Positions 20,592-42,156 of a stretch of 64,000 nt of DNA are shown piece by piece. The notes under the pieces are model-generated. The model had not been told where the DNA came from and made no database searches. It worked only from the letters and a program-made list of their open reading frames with translations. Position numbers and translations under genes: made by a program. The stretch is from an uncultured Porphyromonadaceae bacterium (GTDB lineage: Bacteria > Bacteroidota > Bacteroidia > Bacteroidales > Muribaculaceae): the NCBI GenBank assembly GCA_947175425.1, contig CAMWMR010000010.1, forward strand, positions 1 to 64,000, in the 5' to 3' direction. Numbering within the stretch: the stretch's first letter is position 1; every line of letters starts with the position of its first letter.

Positions 20592-22433
20592 TTACCACGA
20601 TGGCAGCTGCGAGTAGGAGTCGGGTGCCATGGCCGGAAGCGAGTCCATTACGTGCAGGGCAAGGGCGCGGGTCATGAGTATGTCGTCGTGATGTCCGTCT
20701 TTGGCGCCGTAGCTGCCGTTGCCGCGCTGCTCGTAGGTGTCCATTTCGTCGCAGGCGGCGGCGCTGCGTTCGGTGTACAGACCGTCGCGCACGGCTTCCA
20801 CAAGCGTGTCGACAAGAATTGCCTTGGTGGCGCGGTTGGTGTGGAATCCCACGCGTTGGTGCCATGTCTGAGTGGCGGCGTCGTAGTGGCGTCGGCGGTA
20901 GAGATTGGGATATACCTCGGCTATGCGCGAGAGAATGAACAGGTTGGAATCGGCGTCGCCCCCGTAGTTGGCGGTCTCGAAAGTGTTGCTTTCAATGGCC
21001 AGCAGGGCGTTGGAGTAGTAGCGCGCTATGTTCACGGCGTTGGTTGCCACGCGGTCGTGGTCGGCGTGTCCGCGCCATTGCGCCACAACTTCGGGAATGC
21101 CTCCGCGCACACGTTTCATAACGGCTATTACCGAGTAGTCGGCATCCTGCGAGCGTCCGCCAACATCCACTGCGGCCACATACTGCGCTCCGGGCTGCGG
21201 CGCTTCCCACATTTCGAGCTTGCCCTTGGGGTCGTCGGCAAAGGCGGGGCTTGCGTCCACTTCGCCCTTGTGTGCGGGAGCGGTGCACTCGGCGCGCATG
21301 TTCTCCACATGCTGCTGCGCAAAAACGTTGCGGCCGGTGTCGGTAAAGGCCTCGGTGTCGGTTGTGGGGAACTCGGCGTGCACGGCTTTGTCGTTGCCGT
21401 AGGCGCGGGTTTTGCAGCGGTACCAGTAAATCTGATCCAGGCACAGTCCCTGCTCCCACAAATTGCGCTCGTACTCGTCGAGCGAGGCGAGCAAAGCCCT
21501 GTCGTCTGGCGCTTTAAGTCGGTTAAGCTCAATTTCGTACCAGGGCACGAAAACAGCGTGCTTGTCGCCCTCGCCGCTCTTGCATCGCAGCCATTCCTGA
21601 TGAAAAAAGTTGCCCACGCCGTTGGCTGTCGATTCCATAACCACCAGCGAGCCGGGCATAATTGCCACCGAGCCCAGAATGGCACGGAGGAAATCGATTG
21701 GCGAGCGTTTGCGTGTGCGGGGCCAGAAAGCCACTTCGCTCAGGTGCGCCATGGCATAGTCGGCGCCGCGTATCGAATCCTGGTTGTGGCACGAGGCCAC
21801 GCTTACGCAGCACTCGCGGGTGTTTATCATTCGCACGTCGTCGGAACTTTGGAAAGGCTTGAGGGCGGGTTTCTTGTCCTCGGGCCAATATTCCTGCGGA
21901 TAGTTGTCGAGCACGGTGGCGAGCATGCCTCGCAGGGTGAGCGATGTCTGTTTCACCTGCGAGCATATGAGCGAGTTCCAGTGTGTGCGCAGGCAGCACT
22001 GTATCCATGCCATGTACATCTGCACAAGGGTAGATGCGCCCCACTGGCGAGCCTTGAGTATAATCATTCGCATGGGGCGTCCGGCAAGACGGTCGGCCTC
22101 GAGTGCCGCCACAACGCGCCGCTGGGGGCCGTTGAGCACAAAAGGCTGATATTGCCACCCTGTTTTGGGCTTTATTGTGGCGCAGCACACGCTCCAGTAC
22201 TCGAAGTCGTGGCGGAAACGCAGCTTTTTCCATTCTGTAGGGTTGTTGCGCACAAGCTCGAGCTGAGGGTCTTCGGCCATTGAAACGGGCACGTAGGCAT
22301 AGGGAAGCTCGGGCACGGGAGTGGCAATGCGGCAGCGACGGCCAATGCCGCCGAAGCCTGTCACGGGGTTGTATTCCGCCTCGGCGGCATTGCGCAGGTA
22401 AGTGCGGAAGCGGTTTATGAGTATGTCTTTCAT
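20592..22433 (-). CDS. Phage-type terminase large subunit (TerL-like)
   Basis: Walker A-like KARQWGAST, Walker B-like AHLSEVAFW, RNase H-fold nuclease AAVDVGGRSQDADYSVIAVM and DGHHDDILMTRALAL. Confidence 0.88.
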   Translation of the reverse strand: MKDILINRFRTYLRNAAEAEYNPVTGFGGIGRRCRIATPVPELPYAYVPVSMAEDPQLELVRNNPTEWKKLRFRHDFEYWSVCCATIKPKTGWQYQPFVLNGPQRRVVAALEADRLAGRPMRMIILKARQWGASTLVQMYMAWIQCCLRTHWNSLICSQVKQTSLTLRGMLATVLDNYPQEYWPEDKKPALKPFQSSDDVRMINTRECCVSVASCHNQDSIRGADYAMAHLSEVAFWPRTRKRSPIDFLRAILGSVAIMPGSLVVMESTANGVGNFFHQEWLRCKSGEGDKHAVFVPWYEIELNRLKAPDDRALLASLDEYERNLWEQGLCLDQIYWYRCKTRAYGNDKAVHAEFPTTDTEAFTDTGRNVFAQQHVENMRAECTAPAHKGEVDASPAFADDPKGKLEMWEAPQPGAQYVAAVDVGGRSQDADYSVIAVMKRVRGGIPEVVAQWRGHADHDRVATNAVNIARYYSNALLAIESNTFETANYGGDADSNLFILSRIAEVYPNLYRRRHYDAATQTWHQRVGFHTNRATKAILVDTLVEAVRDGLYTERSAAACDEMDTYEQRGNGSYGAKDGHHDDILMTRALALHVMDSLPAMAPDSYSQLPSW

Positions 22434-24739
22434 AGATATATGCGGAATGCTTTTACAGTGCCCTTTATATTAATGTGTAGGGCGCGGAAGTGTCGTGTAA
22501 CAAAAGGAATGAACAAAGAACCGCGCAGAGCGCCCTTTATGCGGGCTTCGCGGATGAGTCGCAGAGGGGCTCCTCCCTGATGTGCGGCGGTGATGCGCAC
22601 CGTGCCGTCGAAGCTCGCCGCCTGCATGGCAAGATGCGCGCCCGGGGCGTTGGCAAGGCTGTAGCCCTTGTTGGGACGGGTAAAGCCCAATTCGGTTTCC
22701 ACGGCAATGCCGGGCAGTTCTTCGCCTGTTATGAGCAGGCGGTCGGGATTGGCGTCGGTGGCGAAGAGCTCGCCGCCGAGGGTGTGGAATTCCTTGGGCG
22801 AGCAGTCGGTGCGGAGGGTGAAACAGCCGTCATAAGCGATATAGTACACCACGGCGCCGTTGCCGTTGCGGGGTATTGCCCACAGCTCGCCGGCGGCGCT
22901 GTTGTAGCCTGTGGCGGCAAGGGGCACTGAGGCGTCGTAGAGCTGAGCCGTGCCCGTGCGGCCTATATGCCACAGGCAGCTGTCGGCGACAAAGAATATT
23001 TCGCCGCCGGGGGCGGTGCATATTGCGTCGCGGCGTTCTATGCCCTTGGAGGAGAGATTGCGGAAAGTGGCGCGGCAGGTGGAGGCGTTATAGGCCAGCG
23101 AGTATATGCCCGAGGCCGAGGCGGCCACAAAACGGCTGCGGCCCATGTCCCACGATTGCTCGGAAATATCGCGTGCCGCAAGGGCGAGCAGGGGAGTGTT
23201 GCCCAATCGCTCGGTGCGACAAATGTCCAGCGGAGCGTCCACGTGTGCGAAAGCCACGGTTTCGGGGAATTCGTCGGCGGGCTCGGGCATGTCTATAATC
23301 TGCGCCACACCCGTCAGGGCGGGTGTATAGGCTTTGAGCGAGGGATGCACGGCAATGGCAAAACGCCCCGAGGCATCGGGAGCGAGTGCGAATGTCTCCT
23401 TGTAGTTGCGCCCTTCCGAGTATAGAAGCACGGTCATTTCCACGGCGTCGGGCGCGGGATAGGCCGTTATGGGGGCAAGCATGGAGGGAAAACCACTGTC
23501 GTGTTCCTCGGTGCGCACCGTGCCGCTGCCGTCGGCAAACCGAATGGCCGTAACGGCGCGCCACGGCTTGTTCTCGGTGGCGGCGGCGAAGTTTGCGGCG
23601 GAATATCCGCGGTATCGTATAACGCTTATATTTCCCCACGCCACAGCCGGGCCGGCAGATGCAACTGCCTGAGCCGTAAAGCTGTGCGGGGCTCTCAGCA
23701 ATGCTTCTTTGCGCGTTGCTGGTGTGAGCGCCGCGGCGAGCGCTTTGTGCAGACTGCGCGTGCTTTGAACGGGGTCGGCGTCGAAAGTAAGGGCAAAAAC
23801 GCTTGTGGAAGGCCTTGAAAACGGCATGTTTATGCTTGCCACGCGTTTTTCTATGGCGTCCATTCGGCTGAATGCCGCTGCAAGTGTGGCGCAGGCCGCC
23901 GTGCCTGCCGTGCTGTCCATGGCAAGCTCGGCGCCGGGCAGTGTTATACGGGCAAAAGGCTCGTCGGCGCTGCTCATTCGTCCGGGCGTGACGCGTGCCG
24001 TCATGCTCGGGTCGTAGGGGTGGAACATGGGCGATATAAATATGTCGGCGCGGGCTATATCGCTGTCGCTCAGTGCTTCGGGAATGTCGGCCTGCAGCTG
24101 CCACGCCTGCGCGGCGGGGTTGTGGGAGTGCACTGTTATGCGGTCGGAGGAGTATACTTCGCTTGCTCCGGCAAAGTTGGCCGTTCCTAACAGCACGGGC
24201 GGGGAGGCGAAACGCATGCGCCCGGAGGCGTCGTAGAGGCGGTAGCGCACAAGGCAGGGCTGTATTGCCGCCGACATCTGCCGCGCTTTGCTGCACAGCT
24301 CGGTATAAGCTTTTTGCAGGTCGGCGGCGAGGGTGCGGGCGTCGGCGTCGTCGATAATGCCGTTCACCGCTCCTTTGGCGAGCTTGCGCTCGGGAACGGT
24401 AACGCTTATAATGCCGGCGCTGCGGGCGCTGAAAGCTATTGGAGGATAGTCGTTTACAAGCTTTTGAGGCCCGCCGTCGCTCTGTATTTTCACAGGGCCT
24501 TCGGCGCTCATTGCCAGGGCGCTGAGTGGTGTGAGCGGAAGGGCGCAGAGGTAGCCCTCGGCACTCCCGGCGAAAACGCGTCCGCTTGCCTTGCGGAAGC
24601 AGGCTACGGGGCGGTTTCCGGCTGTCTGTGGGAGGCTCGAGAGGGATTGGATGTTGATTATGGCGCCGTCGGTGCAGGGGCGCAGATTTACTGATGTTGT
24701 GGTGTTGCCCGCAGGGCGGACGCTTCGGTGGATTAACAT
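22430..24739 (-). CDS. Unassigned large protein coupled to the terminase; possible propeller/structural protein
   Basis: 769-aa ORF; 4-bp ATGA overlap with the terminase start; no obvious signal peptide; repeated beta-rich segments. Confidence 0.7.
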   Translation of the reverse strand: MLIHRSVRPAGNTTTSVNLRPCTDGAIINIQSLSSLPQTAGNRPVACFRKASGRVFAGSAEGYLCALPLTPLSALAMSAEGPVKIQSDGGPQKLVNDYPPIAFSARSAGIISVTVPERKLAKGAVNGIIDDADARTLAADLQKAYTELCSKARQMSAAIQPCLVRYRLYDASGRMRFASPPVLLGTANFAGASEVYSSDRITVHSHNPAAQAWQLQADIPEALSDSDIARADIFISPMFHPYDPSMTARVTPGRMSSADEPFARITLPGAELAMDSTAGTAACATLAAAFSRMDAIEKRVASINMPFSRPSTSVFALTFDADPVQSTRSLHKALAAALTPATRKEALLRAPHSFTAQAVASAGPAVAWGNISVIRYRGYSAANFAAATENKPWRAVTAIRFADGSGTVRTEEHDSGFPSMLAPITAYPAPDAVEMTVLLYSEGRNYKETFALAPDASGRFAIAVHPSLKAYTPALTGVAQIIDMPEPADEFPETVAFAHVDAPLDICRTERLGNTPLLALAARDISEQSWDMGRSRFVAASASGIYSLAYNASTCRATFRNLSSKGIERRDAICTAPGGEIFFVADSCLWHIGRTGTAQLYDASVPLAATGYNSAAGELWAIPRNGNGAVVYYIAYDGCFTLRTDCSPKEFHTLGGELFATDANPDRLLITGEELPGIAVETELGFTRPNKGYSLANAPGAHLAMQAASFDGTVRITAAHQGGAPLRLIREARIKGALRGSLFIPFVTRHFRALHINIKGTVKAFRIYL

Positions 24740-24927
24740 GGAATTTGAAATTTTTTTTGTGATTTTTGCTGCAAAGATAATACGCGGCGAGGCCGGTTTT
24801 TTTACGATTTTTCCGTTTACGTAAATCCGTAAAACGCGAATTGCCGTTTTTGAAAATTGTAAATGGTTATAAATTAATATAATAGCTCGCGAATTGCGTA
24901 TTGTTTTTGTAAAAAGGAAAAATCACT

Positions 24928-31121: not shown

Positions 31122-31517
31122 TTATTCTTCGTCTTTTTCGAGGTCTACGAAAGCACGCCATGTGGTGCCGAGCACCATTTTGATGCAGTTTTCCACAATG
31201 TACTCCTTGGAAACTTCTTCATCGAGGAGGAAGGAGCATTCCATGCGTACGTTACCGTCGCGTACCACAGCTGTGGGCAGGTTGCGGCGGCAGTTGTGGC
31301 GGTTGGCAAGGAAATAGGGGTCGGTTTTGGGTTCGTATCCGGGAGCGCCGGCGGCATAGCTGAGGCGGTTGTTCTTGACAATTACAAAGATAACGACGTC
31401 GTGGCCGAAATCTTCGTCGGCAGTCTGCACAATCACCATGTCGCCGTCTTCGTCGATACGGGTGGAGATGTGGAGTTCGTCAAGATATTCGCGGATAAGG
31501 TTTTTGTCTACTGTCAT
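31122..31517 (-). CDS. YbjN-like domain protein (paralogue 1)
   Basis: Small acidic protein; DEDGDMVIVQTADEDFGHDVVIFVIV...FLANRHNCRRNLPTAVVRDGNV. Confidence 0.65.
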   Translation of the reverse strand: MTVDKNLIREYLDELHISTRIDEDGDMVIVQTADEDFGHDVVIFVIVKNNRLSYAAGAPGYEPKTDPYFLANRHNCRRNLPTAVVRDGNVRMECSFLLDEEVSKEYIVENCIKMVLGTTWRAFVDLEKDEE

Positions 31518-31548
31518 AATAATGAGAGTTTAATAGGTTGATAAAAAT

Positions 31549-31932
31549 TCAGTTAAAAAATTTTACGGCGCAATTCCAAATACTCGAGATTATGGGGCGC
31601 AGGCAATCGTCGCTCAGATAATCGTCGCTCACATCCTCGGTAATGGTGAAAGCGTAGGTAAGAAAGAGTTCGCCGTCGCGGACAATGGCGGTAGGGTAGT
31701 TGCAATTGCCGTTTATATGGTTGGCAAAGCGGTAGATGTCCTCCTTGGGAGTGTAGTCCACGGGCTTGGCCAAAATCATAAGTTGCGGATCCTTGGTAAC
31801 GATGAATACGTTTATGTCGTGCCCGAAATTATCATCGGCTCGCAACACAAAACACAGGTCTCCCTCGGCGTCGAGGCGGGTAGCTATGCCGAGGCGGTCG
31901 AGACAATCACGAGTTCGTTGTTTGGACAGCAT
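31549..31932 (-). CDS. YbjN-like domain protein (paralogue 2)
   Basis: DAEGDLCFVLRADDNFGHDINVFIVT...RFANHINGNCNYPTAIVRDGELF. Confidence 0.65.
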   Translation of the reverse strand: MLSKQRTRDCLDRLGIATRLDAEGDLCFVLRADDNFGHDINVFIVTKDPQLMILAKPVDYTPKEDIYRFANHINGNCNYPTAIVRDGELFLTYAFTITEDVSDDYLSDDCLRPIISSIWNCAVKFFN

Positions 31933-31933
31933 T

Positions 31934-32353
31934 TCAGTTGTTTTGTTTGAAATATTCTTCGTCGGAACGTTCAAAATTCATAAAAGCTTCAAAAGTCAGG
32001 AAAATGCCCGGAGCAAACACATTTTCAAGCATGAAAATGGGCGACACCTCCTGTGTGAACAGCAATGCGCGGGTAAACACCACTTTGCCATCATCGGTAA
32101 TGTGGCACGAGGGTGATACCGAACGGCAATTATGCCTGTTTGCCATTTCAATCAGATTGCCTGACGGATTGTAACCCAAGGCTTCCGAGTGAAATACCAG
32201 CAGGGCGTCGTCAATAATGCTTATGAAAACGGCAACGCGATAGGGAAAGTACTTTTCGTCGAAGATAGCCACACACAACGTGCCGTCCTCCTCTTGCGAG
32301 TAATTCAACCCTTGTATTTCAAGCATTTCCTTGGCGATATCGTAGTTTATCAT
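31934..32353 (-). CDS. YbjN-like domain protein (paralogue 3)
   Basis: EEDGTLCVAIFDEKYFPYRVAVFISI...EMANRHNCRSVSPSCHITDDGKVV; start set at MINYD. Confidence 0.62.
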   Translation of the reverse strand: MINYDIAKEMLEIQGLNYSQEEDGTLCVAIFDEKYFPYRVAVFISIIDDALLVFHSEALGYNPSGNLIEMANRHNCRSVSPSCHITDDGKVVFTRALLFTQEVSPIFMLENVFAPGIFLTFEAFMNFERSDEEYFKQNN

Positions 32354-32601: not shown

Positions 32602-33549
32602 ATGATGATTCAAATTACGACTAAAACTAAGGCAAAGCCTTTTTTGAAGTGGGCAGGAGGCAAAACCCAGTTGCTCCCTGTCATTGATTCGTTCTTGCCG
32701 GATACATTCAGGGCGCAGCAGGACGTGACCTATATAGAGCCTTTTGCCGGAGGCGGCGCAATGCTGTTTTATATGCTGCAAAAGTATCCCAATATACAAC
32801 GAGCTGTAATTAACGACATTAACCCGCATCTTATAAACTCATATCGCGTAATACGTAATGAACCGCATTTACTGATAAAAGCGTTGAAGGAATTGCAAAC
32901 ATCTTTCAAGGCCTTGGGTGACTATGATTTGCAAAAAGAACTATACCTCGATATAAGAAACCGCTTTAACGGGCAACAGGTAAACGATGTAGAGGAGGCG
33001 GCTTATATGATTTTCCTAAACCGCACATGTTTCAACGGCCTTTATAGAGAAAATTCCAAAGGAGGATTCAATGTGCCTTTCGGACGTTACTCCAATCCTA
33101 CCATTTGCGATGAGGAACTTATTCTTGCCGATAGTGAGCTGTTGCAGAAGGTGGATATATTGAACGGCGATTTTTCACAGACATCCGCTCATATCCGGGG
33201 ATATACCTTTTTTTACTTCGATCCTCCATACAGGCCTTTGGATGCAACATCAAGTTTCAATTCCTATGTAAAGGAATCGTTTGACGATAACGAGCAGATA
33301 AGACTAAAAGATTTTTTTGCGGAAATTACAGCAGCCGGCTGTCATGCCATGCTCAGCAATTCCGATTGCAAGGGACGCAATGCCGACGATGATTTTCTGG
33401 ACAACCTATACCGGGATTTTTTCATAGAAAGAGTGTATGCTAAACGTTGCATCAATGCAAATGCATCCAAACGAGGTTCTCTCACCGAGCTGTTGATCCG
33501 AAACTACGAAAATTATCAGGCGTATTCTGCAAATCTTTTTAATATTTGA
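32602..33549 (+). CDS. DNA adenine methylase, Dam/DpnM type (GATC, predicted)
   Basis: FLKWAGGKTQLLPVI, EPFAGGGAMLF, FFYFDPPYRPL, MLSNSD. Confidence 0.94.
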   Translation: MMIQITTKTKAKPFLKWAGGKTQLLPVIDSFLPDTFRAQQDVTYIEPFAGGGAMLFYMLQKYPNIQRAVINDINPHLINSYRVIRNEPHLLIKALKELQTSFKALGDYDLQKELYLDIRNRFNGQQVNDVEEAAYMIFLNRTCFNGLYRENSKGGFNVPFGRYSNPTICDEELILADSELLQKVDILNGDFSQTSAHIRGYTFFYFDPPYRPLDATSSFNSYVKESFDDNEQIRLKDFFAEITAAGCHAMLSNSDCKGRNADDDFLDNLYRDFFIERVYAKRCINANASKRGSLTELLIRNYENYQAYSANLFNI

Positions 33550-33551
33550 CT

Positions 33552-34388
33552 ATGGCCTGCCGTTTTACCGATTTTATGAAACAACTCAAGGAAACTCACT
33601 TTTCTCTCAAGGACTATGTGGATTTTCCCAAGGTTGCAGCCAATGTAGAGGCTATATCCATAAAGCTCAATCAACTCAACTATTTGATTGGACAAGAAGA
33701 TATGGCTGCGGCTGTAAAGCGTTTGTGGGACGAAAATCCCAAGGTATTTTCGGTTTTGGATGTGCTTATAGCTGTACGGCCAAAGGACAGGAAGAAAGCC
33801 ATAGATATACACGGCAATATTCATTTGCTTAGCGACTACTTCGATTCTCCCGATCATGTAACAGAGTTTATAGAAGAAACAGGACTTGGTAATGTGTTTA
33901 GAAATAAGCAAATAAAGAATCTTGTAGATTATGTTTTCGGTGTTGAGGTCGGCCTTGATTCCAATGCTCGAAAGAACAGGGGTGGACACATTATGGAAGA
34001 CCTTGTGGCAAAAATATTTACACTAAACGGTATTCCGTTCCGACGAGAGGTGTATTATACCGAGTTTCCCGATATTGTGAAAGCTTTGGGTGCTGATAAC
34101 AAACGCTTTGATTTCGTTATCCGTACAAAAGAGACGATTTTCCTTATAGAAGCCAATTTCTATAGCAGTGGCGGCTCCAAGCTAAACGAAGTAGCCCGTT
34201 CATATTCGGAGCTTGCGCCAAAAATAAATGCGGTCCCCGGTTTTGAGTTTGTGTGGATAACCGACGGAATAGGTTGGGAGTCGGCCCGCAATAAACTTGA
34301 AGAAGCATTTGTACATATTCCCAAAGTGTATAATCTTACGAATATCACGGAATTTATCGATTTGCTAAAACACTTGTCGGTTCAATGA
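33552..34388 (+). CDS. DpnII-type restriction endonuclease
   Basis: DpnII-like N-terminus and core RKNRGGHIMEDLVAKIF...KRFDFVIRTKETIFLIEANFYSSGGSKLNEVARSY; between two methylases. Confidence 0.9.
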   Translation: MACRFTDFMKQLKETHFSLKDYVDFPKVAANVEAISIKLNQLNYLIGQEDMAAAVKRLWDENPKVFSVLDVLIAVRPKDRKKAIDIHGNIHLLSDYFDSPDHVTEFIEETGLGNVFRNKQIKNLVDYVFGVEVGLDSNARKNRGGHIMEDLVAKIFTLNGIPFRREVYYTEFPDIVKALGADNKRFDFVIRTKETIFLIEANFYSSGGSKLNEVARSYSELAPKINAVPGFEFVWITDGIGWESARNKLEEAFVHIPKVYNLTNITEFIDLLKHLSVQ

Positions 34389-35269
34389 TAATACCATACT
34401 TTAAATCGAACAGCAGGGATTTTGCCATTGTCAACGGTGATTGCTTTGACGTGTTGCCGCAGTTCGATTTTAAGTTTGATATGATTTTTGCCGATCCTCC
34501 GTATTTTCTGTCTAACGGAGGTATCAGTTGTCATTCCGGGCAAGTAGTGTGCGTGGATAAAGGCGATTGGGACAAAGGCGGCTCTCCGGAGTTTATAGAA
34601 GAGTTTAACCGCAAATGGCTGCGGCTGTGCCGGGATAAACTTAAGGATAACGGAACTATCTGGATTTCAGGGACTCATCATAATATTTTTTCAATAGCGA
34701 ATGTCCTTACGGAACTCGGATATAAGATTCTTAATGTAATTACTTGGGCAAAAACAAATCCGCCGCCAAATATTTCTTGTCGTTTTTTCACCCACTCGAC
34801 CGAGTTCATTATTTGGGCGCGTAAATATGCGAAAGTGCCTCACAAGTATAATTACGAGCTGATGAAGGCTATTAACGACGGCAAGCAGATGACCGATGTT
34901 TGGCGACTGCCCGCAATTGGCCGTTGGGAGAAATCGTGTGGCAAACACCCGACGCAGAAGCCCTTAGCCTTGCTTACCCGCATTATTCTTGCGAGTACCG
35001 ATGCGCATGACTGGATTCTTGATCCTTTTGCGGGATCTTCAACTACCGGAATTGCCGCAAATTTATGTGGCAGGCGTTTTATAGGAATCGAAAAGGAAGA
35101 AGAATTTTCGTTGCTTGGCCGACTGCGCAGGGAAGAAATTGACTGTCCTGATGTGAGGCATGGTTACATTAACAGACTAAGCGACTTGAAATATGTATCG
35201 TTCATGTCCGGCATTACAGAGCCGGAGGTGGTTTACGGTAATGATTTGGAAAATATTTTCGGAGAGTGA
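34385..35269 (+). CDS. Second DNA adenine methylase, DpnA-like
   Basis: MIFADPPYFLSNGGISCHSGQ...DKGDWD; GKHPTQKPLALLTRIILAST...DPFAGSSTTGIAA. Confidence 0.93.
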   Translation: MIIPYFKSNSRDFAIVNGDCFDVLPQFDFKFDMIFADPPYFLSNGGISCHSGQVVCVDKGDWDKGGSPEFIEEFNRKWLRLCRDKLKDNGTIWISGTHHNIFSIANVLTELGYKILNVITWAKTNPPPNISCRFFTHSTEFIIWARKYAKVPHKYNYELMKAINDGKQMTDVWRLPAIGRWEKSCGKHPTQKPLALLTRIILASTDAHDWILDPFAGSSTTGIAANLCGRRFIGIEKEEEFSLLGRLRREEIDCPDVRHGYINRLSDLKYVSFMSGITEPEVVYGNDLENIFGE

Positions 35270-39794: not shown

Positions 39795-39803
39795 TATCTT
39801 TGC
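39795..39803 (+). promoter_or_regulatory. Bacteroidetes -7 box (TATCTTTGC) for the 39892 gene pair
   Basis: TTG at 39772-39774, 20-bp spacing. Confidence 0.6.
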
Positions 39804-39891: not shown

Positions 39892-40305
39892 ATGAAACCA
39901 CAATCTATTCCCGGAGCACGCCAGCGCGATTTAATAATGGCCGCGCTCGATGTACTTTCCAAAGCTCGAGCCGAGGGTGAAATACTGACATTTCGCGAGC
40001 TGACGCGTCGAGCGTTACTTCGTCAGCCGTCAATGTACTATATTTCGGTAAGTACGGCAGTTAACCGTTTGAGCCGCATGCGTCGCGGACATCATGTATT
40101 CGAGAGCGAGCTTACGGCGCGACAGTACGAAGAAATCAACGAGCAGGTGAACAGTGTTCTTGCCAAGCGACCGACCTTGAATTTCTCGGGCGCAGTAAAC
40201 TTTGTGCTCAGCTATATGCGTCCGTCTCGTTTTTATATAAGTGAGGATACGGCAAGCCGTATAATCCGTCCGTACACAATGTTTCACGGTTTTGCAGGAG
40301 CTTGA
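39892..40305 (+). CDS. Small unassigned protein, possibly winged-helix-like
   Basis: 137 aa, basic; FRELTRRALLRQPSMYYISVSTAVNRLSRMRRG; promoter upstream. Confidence 0.6.
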   Translation: MKPQSIPGARQRDLIMAALDVLSKARAEGEILTFRELTRRALLRQPSMYYISVSTAVNRLSRMRRGHHVFESELTARQYEEINEQVNSVLAKRPTLNFSGAVNFVLSYMRPSRFYISEDTASRIIRPYTMFHGFAGA

Positions 40306-40308
40306 ATT

Positions 40309-40734
40309 ATGGTTACCACACTTGCAATTTCGATTCCGAGTATACTGCAGAGTATTTATGCGTATGCAGCGGCCGATTGTCTCGACCATGAGACCGAAGC
40401 TGTACTGAGCCGCGATAACGAGGCATTGCTGAAGCGTATTGCGCGCGATATTGTTGCCGGCACAATTTTTCAGTTTATCCCCTCGGTAACGGGTACGAAC
40501 CTTACGGATTCGTCGCAGCCCGATGTAATTACCATTGACGTTGATTTGCCGGGCAATGTTCCTCCCGTGCCTTTGCGTGTGAATCTTGAGGTTGCCGTTG
40601 CCACGGGCGTTCTTGCGGCGCTTCAGCTGCCGTCGTCGGAGCTGTACCACGAAATGTACAAGGATTCAATGAAGAGTCTGCGCCGCAATCTGCTTTTCGG
40701 CAGCCGTCCCGGCTATATAAAGCAGCACGGATAA
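40309..40734 (+). CDS. Small unassigned protein
   Basis: 141-aa ORF 3 bp downstream of the previous gene; followed by a terminator. Confidence 0.6.
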   Translation: MVTTLAISIPSILQSIYAYAAADCLDHETEAVLSRDNEALLKRIARDIVAGTIFQFIPSVTGTNLTDSSQPDVITIDVDLPGNVPPVPLRVNLEVAVATGVLAALQLPSSELYHEMYKDSMKSLRRNLLFGSRPGYIKQHG

Positions 40735-40737
40735 AAA

Positions 40738-40764
40738 AAGAGACCGCCTTAAGCGGTCTCTTCT
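40738..40764. terminator. Bidirectional terminator between convergent genes
   Basis: aagagaccgc-cttaa-gcggtctctt flanked by A-run/T-rich. Confidence 0.75.
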
Positions 40765-40782
40765 ATAAGTATACTAAGTTTA

Positions 40783-42156
40783 TCAGAGGATAACTTTGCT
40801 TACTTTGTTGCCCTGGCGACGGATGAAGATACCGTTTTCGGGGTTGGCAACGCGGATACCCTGGAGGTTGAAGAATTCAACGGGAGCGTTTTCGTCGACT
40901 ACGATGTTTTCAACGGCATTGTTGTCGAGGCCGGTGATGTAGATGTGCTGAACTTCCCAAGTTCCTGCAACAGCTTCGGTAGAAGTGTAGCGGAAAGCAA
41001 TCTGAATGTTTCTTGCGTTGAAAGCAGAGAGGTCGATGGGAGTGTTTTCGTAGAAGTTCCAGCTGAAAGCTTCGGGGAGGTCGAGACCATTGAGAACAGT
41101 CCATTCGGTGTCGCCTTCAACACGAGCGAGAACCTGAGCCCAAGCGGGATCGAAGTTGTCGGGATCGATCATTACGTTGTCTTCCTTGTACTGGTTGAAA
41201 GCGTTGGAGAAGTGGAGTTGAAGGTCTTTGTAGGTTGTGAGGTCGATAACGGGAGAAACTGCAATAGCAGTGGCAGCATTGGGAACGCTGTTGTAGAAAC
41301 CGGAACCTACGAGACCGTAGTTGTTCTGTTTCCAGATAGCATATTCTTCGGGATTTTCGAGTGTGAATTCAGCACCGAGTTCGCTCTGCCAAGCAGCTTT
41401 AACGGGAGCAGCCCAGTTAACAGTGAGGAGGTAGGAAGCTGAACCGGCTTTGAATTCGTCGTTAGCGGCAGCAGCAGCTGTGATGCGGGCAGTACCAACA
41501 CCTACAACGGTAACGGCACCTGTAGCAGCGTCAACAGTAGCGACAGAAGTTTTGTCGGAAGAGTAAGTAACTTCGGCGTTGGTAGCTTTAGAAAGCACGG
41601 GAGCAGTGAATTCTTCGCCTAATGTTACGGTGTAGCTTTCTTCGGGGAAAGAGAGTTCGGCGTCCTTGCGGTTGTCGGCGGTGTTGGAGTAGGTAACAAC
41701 AAGAGTTTTAATCTGAATTGTACCGGTAGTAACTTTTCCGGTGGATGCGTTTGTTGTACCAACGTTTGTAAGTTCAATGCTTTCGGCATTGCCTGTCCAT
41801 GTTCCGGAAGTGTATTCACCTTCGGAGGCAGAGAAATAGCCGGTGTTAGTACCGGTAAGTTTCATTTCGGTAATTGTACAGCCTTCAACGCTAACGGTGA
41901 TACCGCTTTTGTTCATTACGCGGAAAGTCTGATTTGTACCGGAGAGCCAAAAACGTAAGCCGGAACCGGTGTTTTTGTTTAAGGTAACAGTAACAACGCC
42001 TTCGGTCATGCTTCCTGATTCGATATATGGACCTGAAGTGTCTGATTCTACGGGGAAACCGTATGAATTGGTAGTGAAGTCGAAAGTTACTTCATCGGCA
42101 TTGGCAACGGAGAAACCTGCCAAAGCAACTACAGCAGAGAGTAGAAGTTTTTTCAT
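40783..42156 (-). CDS. Secreted protein with C-terminal NLQGIRVANPENGIFIRRQG module
   Basis: Signal peptide MKKLLLSAVVALAGFSVANA; Big_2-like AEVTYSSDKTSVATVDAATGAVTVVGVGTARITA. Confidence 0.82.
   Translation of the reverse strand: MKKLLLSAVVALAGFSVANADEVTFDFTTNSYGFPVESDTSGPYIESGSMTEGVVTVTLNKNTGSGLRFWLSGTNQTFRVMNKSGITVSVEGCTITEMKLTGTNTGYFSASEGEYTSGTWTGNAESIELTNVGTTNASTGKVTTGTIQIKTLVVTYSNTADNRKDAELSFPEESYTVTLGEEFTAPVLSKATNAEVTYSSDKTSVATVDAATGAVTVVGVGTARITAAAAANDEFKAGSASYLLTVNWAAPVKAAWQSELGAEFTLENPEEYAIWKQNNYGLVGSGFYNSVPNAATAIAVSPVIDLTTYKDLQLHFSNAFNQYKEDNVMIDPDNFDPAWAQVLARVEGDTEWTVLNGLDLPEAFSWNFYENTPIDLSAFNARNIQIAFRYTSTEAVAGTWEVQHIYITGLDNNAVENIVVDENAPVEFFNLQGIRVANPENGIFIRRQGNKVSKVIL

Follow-up and report, generated by a model that had tools for sequence, protein, structure and literature searches.

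A phage terminase gene of Muribaculaceae probably belongs to a dispersed, vertically inherited, podovirus-type system resembling gene transfer agents

Introduction

What is an intact gene for the large subunit of a phage terminase doing among the housekeeping genes of a gut bacterium? The question is raised by a 64,000-nucleotide stretch of DNA (hereafter the window) from an uncultured Porphyromonadaceae bacterium classified in the Muribaculaceae (assembly GCA_947175425.1, contig CAMWMR010000010.1, here C10, positions 1 to 64,000). In this window a first-pass annotation had singled out a terminase gene, terL, coupled to an unassigned 769-amino acid (aa) open reading frame (ORF), and had suggested a domesticated two-gene unit, possibly a part resembling a gene transfer agent (GTA), a satellite or a defence system. 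We consider it likely, judging from the genes, that the two ORFs are part of a GTA-like system of podovirus type, dispersed over the chromosome and vertically inherited. At least three cassettes, of which the pair is one, together specify a short-tailed particle: its head, neck, nozzle and packaging motor.

Results

A packaging motor and a predicted tail nozzle

The gene pair and its promoter element, which make up cassette A, are laid out as follows.

20592-22433, minus strand: terL, terminase large subunit (packaging ATPase and RNase-H nuclease), 613 aa, assigned by PHROG and PDB matches
22430-24739, minus strand: predicted tail nozzle of the P22 gp10, Sf6 gp8 and T7 gp12 type, 769 aa, assigned with AlphaFold2 and Foldseek
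24772-24779, minus strand: TATCTTTG, Bacteroidales-type -7 promoter element, 40 bp upstream of the nozzle gene

Firstly, we established the identity of the terminase. The protein matches the PHROG families phrog_2 (2e-23) and phrog_38407 (3e-24) and, in the PDB, T4 gp17 (2e-7). The first-pass annotation had read the ATPase motif and the acidic nuclease residues as retained; K127, R129 and S134/T135 of the Walker-A motif KARQWGxST, E233, D423, E481 and D583/D584 are identical in 43 of 43 aligned homologues. The two ORFs (22433-20592 and 24739-22430, both on the minus strand) are full length, as had been claimed, and the start of terL does overlap the stop of its partner by 4 bp (ATGA); the gene pair is intact. 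Their composition, described earlier as host-like, is not: GC content is 0.61 for the two genes against 0.52 for their neighbours. The terminase gene is single-copy in the source genome (2.5 Mb, 99.99% complete), and the named genes that flank the pair are host genes (vorB, tcdA, pheS, nth, asnS and others).

Secondly, we analysed the 769-aa protein, for which sequence searches of Pfam, PHROG and PDB gave no match. Its AlphaFold2 model has a mean pLDDT (predicted local distance difference test) of 89, and structural comparison with phage tail and stabilisation proteins, which had been proposed for this ORF, was informative: the ten best Foldseek matches in the PDB are all podovirus tail proteins (E 1.4e-10 to 8e-7), P22 gp10, Sf6 gp8 and SU10 among them, with T7 gp12 lower down. 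Among the viral models of BFVD the best match reaches 1e-29, and P22-gp10-like stabilization proteins rank below it. The nozzles of P22, Sf6, SU10 and T7 share a fold with the 769-aa protein at a sequence identity of about 10%, the structures overlapping in part (template modelling score 0.2-0.3 to PDB chains and 0.61 to the best viral model). The family profile matches a prophage protein, phrog_32516, at 1.4e-20, a value taken before inclusion since iterated profiles inflate the E-values of included phage relatives. Homologues of the protein diverge fast (19-33% identity), and a scan of viral contigs with the nozzle alignment gave nothing usable, the sequences being too divergent. In the genus g62, the gene is encoded together with portal, connector and terL. 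The protein is thus modelled as a podovirus tail nozzle of the P22 gp10 type, a fold found within a short-tail gene set.

Further cassettes on the same contig

The portal, connector and capsid genes that were missing from the surroundings of terL are found on the same contig, 45 kb away. This second cassette (C10:69533-72810) starts 5.5 kb past the end of the window and contains genes for an SU10-type capsid protein (Pfam SU10_MCP, 2.8e-53), for a protein that resembles a connector and has a phage homologue, and for a P22-type portal (Pfam P22_portal, 8e-13; phrog_156, at G000:C10:71470). A portal was found in 10 of 10 Muribaculaceae genomes searched, at a distance from the terminase. A 6.9-kb contig of the assembly (C58, L121) repeats the capsid-connector-portal cassette, which is probably assembly redundancy and possibly a duplication. 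The capsid proteins of some GTA-like loci and related phages (L253, L255, L287-L292) carry a hydrophobic, membrane-like N-terminal segment.

A third cassette, cassette C, lies inside the window at 39892-40734 and was revealed by a six-frame profile scan.

39795-39802, plus strand: TATCTTTG, promoter element of cassette C
39892-40305, plus strand: c6 family, 137 aa, all-helical (six-frame hidden Markov model, HMM, E 1.6e-22)
40309-40734, plus strand: 'adap' family, putative head-tail adaptor, 141 aa, 3 bp past c6 (six-frame HMM E 2.3e-11)
40738-40762, plus strand: terminator-like hairpin 3' of the cassette (minimum free energy -17.8 kcal/mol over 40725-40785, z -4.2)

Phage homologues of c6 (phrog_27246) adjoin terL, which is the position of a small terminase, and the AlphaFold2 model of c6 is helical (pLDDT 92) with no fold match in the PDB; c6 may be the small terminase, a role suggested by position. 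In relatives, adap is always directly 3' of c6. The earlier claim that no phage gene lies within 20 kb of the pair thus holds for recognisable capsid and portal genes and fails for c6 and adap, 15 kb off. When the window was scanned in six frames with 14 phage-gene profiles, only TerL, nozzle, c6 and adaptor were found, and the integrase, replication, lysis and structural genes of an intact prophage do not occur in the window as one contiguous element.

Upstream of 11 of the 15 cassettes inspected (stretches of 160-220 bp) we found the Bacteroidales element TAnnTTTG, which occurs in 4.5% of random 120-bp stretches; the cassettes therefore look like separately transcribed host operons. In many relatives, a small acidic protein matched by a phage scaffold profile (c15) is encoded 5' of the capsid gene. 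Identified by sequence or by fold, at least eight gene families occupy these separately promoted cassettes: scaffold, SU10-type capsid, connector, P22-type portal, c6, adaptor, terminase and nozzle. In g62 all eight are gathered within about 10 kb (nozzle-TerL and c15-MCP-c4-portal-c6-adaptor, MCP being the major capsid protein), outside of which lie only host genes. Three short IMG/VR contigs filed as viral (L284, L285 and L286) are a g62-like chromosomal cluster of Muribaculaceae type.

A homologue of phage ejection proteins is also present in the source genome (C13:876-15222, L411), together with a 359-aa ORF and an intact 4225-aa polyvalent phage protein; host genes follow. The 4225-aa protein contains InPase, PBECR5, ddrB-ParB and MuF_C domains and is 51% identical to gp3 of phage BS-TP4 over 1618 aa. 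The locus is either a prophage remnant or a further cassette, and the ejection-protein matches (here and in G041) were excluded from the system, as they stand beside giant phage-like polyvalent ORFs.

Two other groups of genes in the window were noted. Dam-type and CcrM-like adenine methylase genes lie between cassettes A and C (32602-35269, GC 0.42), and three tandem paralogous genes of 127-139 aa, grouped by BLAST, occupy 31122-32353 on the minus strand.

Distribution and genomic placement

In a first survey of 99 relatives, the terminase was found in 54 and its partner in 46, the terminase being present in most sampled genera of the family. Of 197 Muribaculaceae genomes with a completeness of at least 90%, 183 have MCP and 186 have TerL; each gene spans 25 of 26 genera, as a rule in a single copy. 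TerL loci were also detected in the cultured Heminiphilus faecis AM35 and Muribaculaceae Isolate-002 (NCI). The pair recurs across the family, beyond chance. A simple prophage remnant had been expected to occur in one strain with decay in relatives; the breadth of this distribution and dN/dS ratios (nonsynonymous to synonymous substitution rates) of 0.05-0.36 contradict that expectation. The structural genes do adjoin the terminase in some genera, another sign that had been named as counting against a domesticated unit, but they do so as the same minimal eight-gene set without other phage functions, which supports domestication over a simple prophage.

In most species the cassettes stand apart, among housekeeping genes, and their positions change from genus to genus. 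In G206, a genome assembled as one contig, TerL lies at 0.94 Mb and MCP at 1.89 Mb, about 1 Mb apart; elsewhere the distance is 1.6-8 kb. Close species have flanks in common. The flanks of the terL pair share almost nothing between species and contain no phage genes. Some flanks of the TerL cassette are common with the window (vorB in g10 and g53), at a frequency near chance expectation, and were not used as evidence.

In an order-wide sample, MCP was found outside Muribaculaceae in six other families, in all of their sampled members, leaving aside one prophage-carrying genome (G077), and TerL in 10 of 10 genomes searched from these sister families. Their loci are also dispersed but gene-richer: a full-length scaffold gene and, in some of these families, a tail-fibre gene adjoin the capsid gene, an endolysin gene is also beside it in one genome, ejection-type proteins are encoded beside terL or alone, and portal and nozzle form a pair. 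In five of the sister families one and the same host gene lies next to the MCP cluster, and g1, g10 and f28 have a further neighbour in common.

A further GTA-like head set, derived from another lineage of phages, was found at L418, L419, L420, L421, L423 and L085 (g69; two of the genomes are filed in g1). Its TerL-c6 genes are divergent from scaffold-MCP-c4, host genes flank it in several species, and it seemingly replaces the set described above (type I) in many g69 genomes.

Inheritance, selection and composition

The mode of inheritance was assessed with trees of RpoB, MCP and TerL. In the RpoB tree, the carriers sampled, 35 in number, fall into one clade, apart from the 15 non-carriers (SH-aLRT 99). 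The RpoB tree has 19 of 29 splits in common with the MCP tree and as many with the TerL tree (maximum after shuffling, 4 and 3); among the three trees 18-19 of 29 splits are common, and no well-supported branch conflicts. The MCP and TerL trees separate nearly all carriers from prophages. Tree agreement and common host neighbours point to vertical inheritance at loci that are fixed and rearrange slowly.

Between close species, dN/dS (Nei-Gojobori method, several dS values being near saturation) was 0.075-0.24 for TerL, 0.045-0.107 for MCP, 0.047-0.153 for the portal and 0.29-0.36 for the nozzle; in the closest pair of genomes (G107 and G172) it was 0.05-0.11 for TerL, MCP, portal and c4. The cassette genes, terminase included, are kept by purifying selection.

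Raised GC content combined with a lower carbon cost is a signature reported for alphaproteobacterial GTAs (PMC7360931). Here, the genes of the system exceed their neighbours in GC content at 109 of 116 loci, and side-chain carbon is lower in their proteins; against phage homologues the carbon difference holds for TerL, portal and c4 and not for MCP.

Discussion

A GTA is defined by six features (Kogay et al. 2022, PMC9662315), of which three are genomic and three experimental (random host DNA, a head too small, and delivery). The genomic features are all seen here. Caudoviricete-derived proteins are present (TerL, SU10_MCP, P22_portal, the nozzle fold and the scaffold). The genome is fully endogenized, often in multiple loci, with three cassettes on C10 and up to about 1 Mb between cassettes elsewhere. 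Inheritance is mostly vertical with host co-diversification, as indicated by the carrier clade, the 19 of 29 RpoB splits and the common neighbour gene. Two of the earlier suggestions are supported, namely that the pair is domesticated and that it is a GTA-like part. It is not a two-gene unit, and the ideas of a satellite and of a defence system find no support in a pair that is one of several particle cassettes.

In such a system, the cassettes would be expressed in some cells, and capsids would assemble on the portal around a short scaffold. The terminase would fill them by a headful-like process with chromosomal DNA, the presumed cargo because the system retains no element of its own that could be packaged; packaging of the full set of its own genes is unlikely, since these are dispersed over 52 kb to about 1 Mb. 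Adaptor and nozzle would then seal the head and, at a later stage, pass the DNA on to a nearby cell.

Several observations weigh against this reading. Most of the surveyed genomes are metagenome-assembled. The correlation between RpoB and MCP distances is weak (r 0.35, permutation maximum 0.36), and MCP shows the carbon signature weakly or not at all. A search for tail fibres in 14 Muribaculaceae genomes, including the source genome, found none. The ejection-protein homologue of the source genome accompanies the 4225-aa ORF, which is closer to a phage than to the GTA set. In one genome (G030, 99% complete), terL is absent, the portal is split into two ORFs and the nozzle is shortened, which is loss of the system in one lineage.

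Could the cassettes build a domesticated particle with another role, such as a PBSX-like killing particle, which packages DNA without delivering it, or a phage-interference device? In the Muribaculaceae searched, a motor and a head are encoded and no tail fibre was found, and the fast evolution of the nozzle is expected of a part facing other cells. On the other hand, the adaptor and nozzle are conserved, which implies a short tail capable of injection, the sister families have tail-fibre and ejection-protein genes, and killing particles are better known as long-tailed. We regard this explanation as unlikely. That the cassettes are what is left, here and there, of ordinary prophages, retained by chance and often acquired anew, is highly improbable: related full-length prophages and temperate phages do exist and a few genomes have decayed, as G030 has, but presence in 25 of 26 genera, usually in one copy, vertical trees that set nearly all carriers apart from prophages, purifying selection and fixed loci beside one host gene in five families all oppose it. 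Least probable of all is a satellite, or a dispersed and still mobile phage dependent on a helper, which would account for cassette positions that differ between genera but is opposed by the lack of a recognisable integrase or replication gene beside the cassettes in the loci read, by vertical trees and flanks common to close species and between families, and by a near-complete head set that makes a helper unnecessary.

As to the origin of the GTA-like system, we lean towards a podovirus-type, cassette-dispersed GTA that the common ancestor of Muribaculaceae and the six sister families already possessed and that has been inherited like a core trait; in many species of g69 it would have been replaced by the second, independently domesticated phage head set.

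Few GTAs are known. A full-text literature search for GTAs and Muribaculaceae returned no paper, and one for GTAs in Bacteroidales or Bacteroidota no title or abstract describing such a GTA, both with coverage that leaves out many subscription papers and every bioRxiv preprint. If the reading is true, this would be the first GTA in Bacteroidota within the literature searched, among the most completely dispersed, and a built-in route of gene exchange for dominant gut commensals, Muribaculaceae being a family abundant in the mouse gut. The system makes it possible to test how a phage genome can still yield a particle after being broken into scattered host operons, and what makes selection preserve it. 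It shows, moreover, that what is taken for an 'orphan' phage gene, or in some cases filed as a short viral contig, can belong to the core genes of the host.

Comparison with known systems

The closest sequenced phages are the temperate Bacteroides phages BS-TP4, BKO1-TP3 and BF1-TP2, whose proteins are 36-37% (TerL) and 36-40% (MCP) identical to those described here. BS-TP4 holds the family set (portal, TerL, c6, scaffold, MCP, connector and nozzle) in one 64-kb genome. Unlike the dispersed system, these are complete phages of 64-68 kb with an endolysin, a giant ejected protein and further genes; their portal is larger, at 657 aa where most GTA loci have about 430-520, and so is their scaffold, at 263 aa against about 100-165. 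The TerLs of the three phages (PQ571277.1, PQ571269.1 and PQ571263.1) are labelled 'tail spike protein' in public records.

Like the alphaproteobacterial and spirochaete systems RcGTA, BaGTA and BhGTA, the system described here is made up of particle genes from a phage that have become fixed in the chromosome, often in more than one place, are inherited vertically and come without phage replication or integration genes (PMC9662315), and it has raised GC content and a lower carbon cost (PMC7360931). Unlike them, it is found in another phylum, is known from its genes, derives from an ancestor with an SU10-type capsid, a P22-type portal and nozzle and a short tail, and is split into cassettes of 2-6 genes that lie up to about 1 Mb apart. 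As regards the Rhodogtaviriformidae (RcGTA-like), which have an RcGTA-homologous head-tail cluster, the families matched here are of SU10/P22-podovirus types. The nearest functional analogue in the gut, by likeness of description, is FpGTA of Faecalibacterium (PMC12946183), which is also podovirus-like, resides in a gut commensal, is near-ubiquitous in its genus and has its genes in two operons about 125 kb apart. FpGTA belongs to Bacillota, and its particles and their packaged DNA of 8.4-8.9 kb have been shown experimentally, where the present comparison is drawn from a gene set. The present system spans a whole family and six others.

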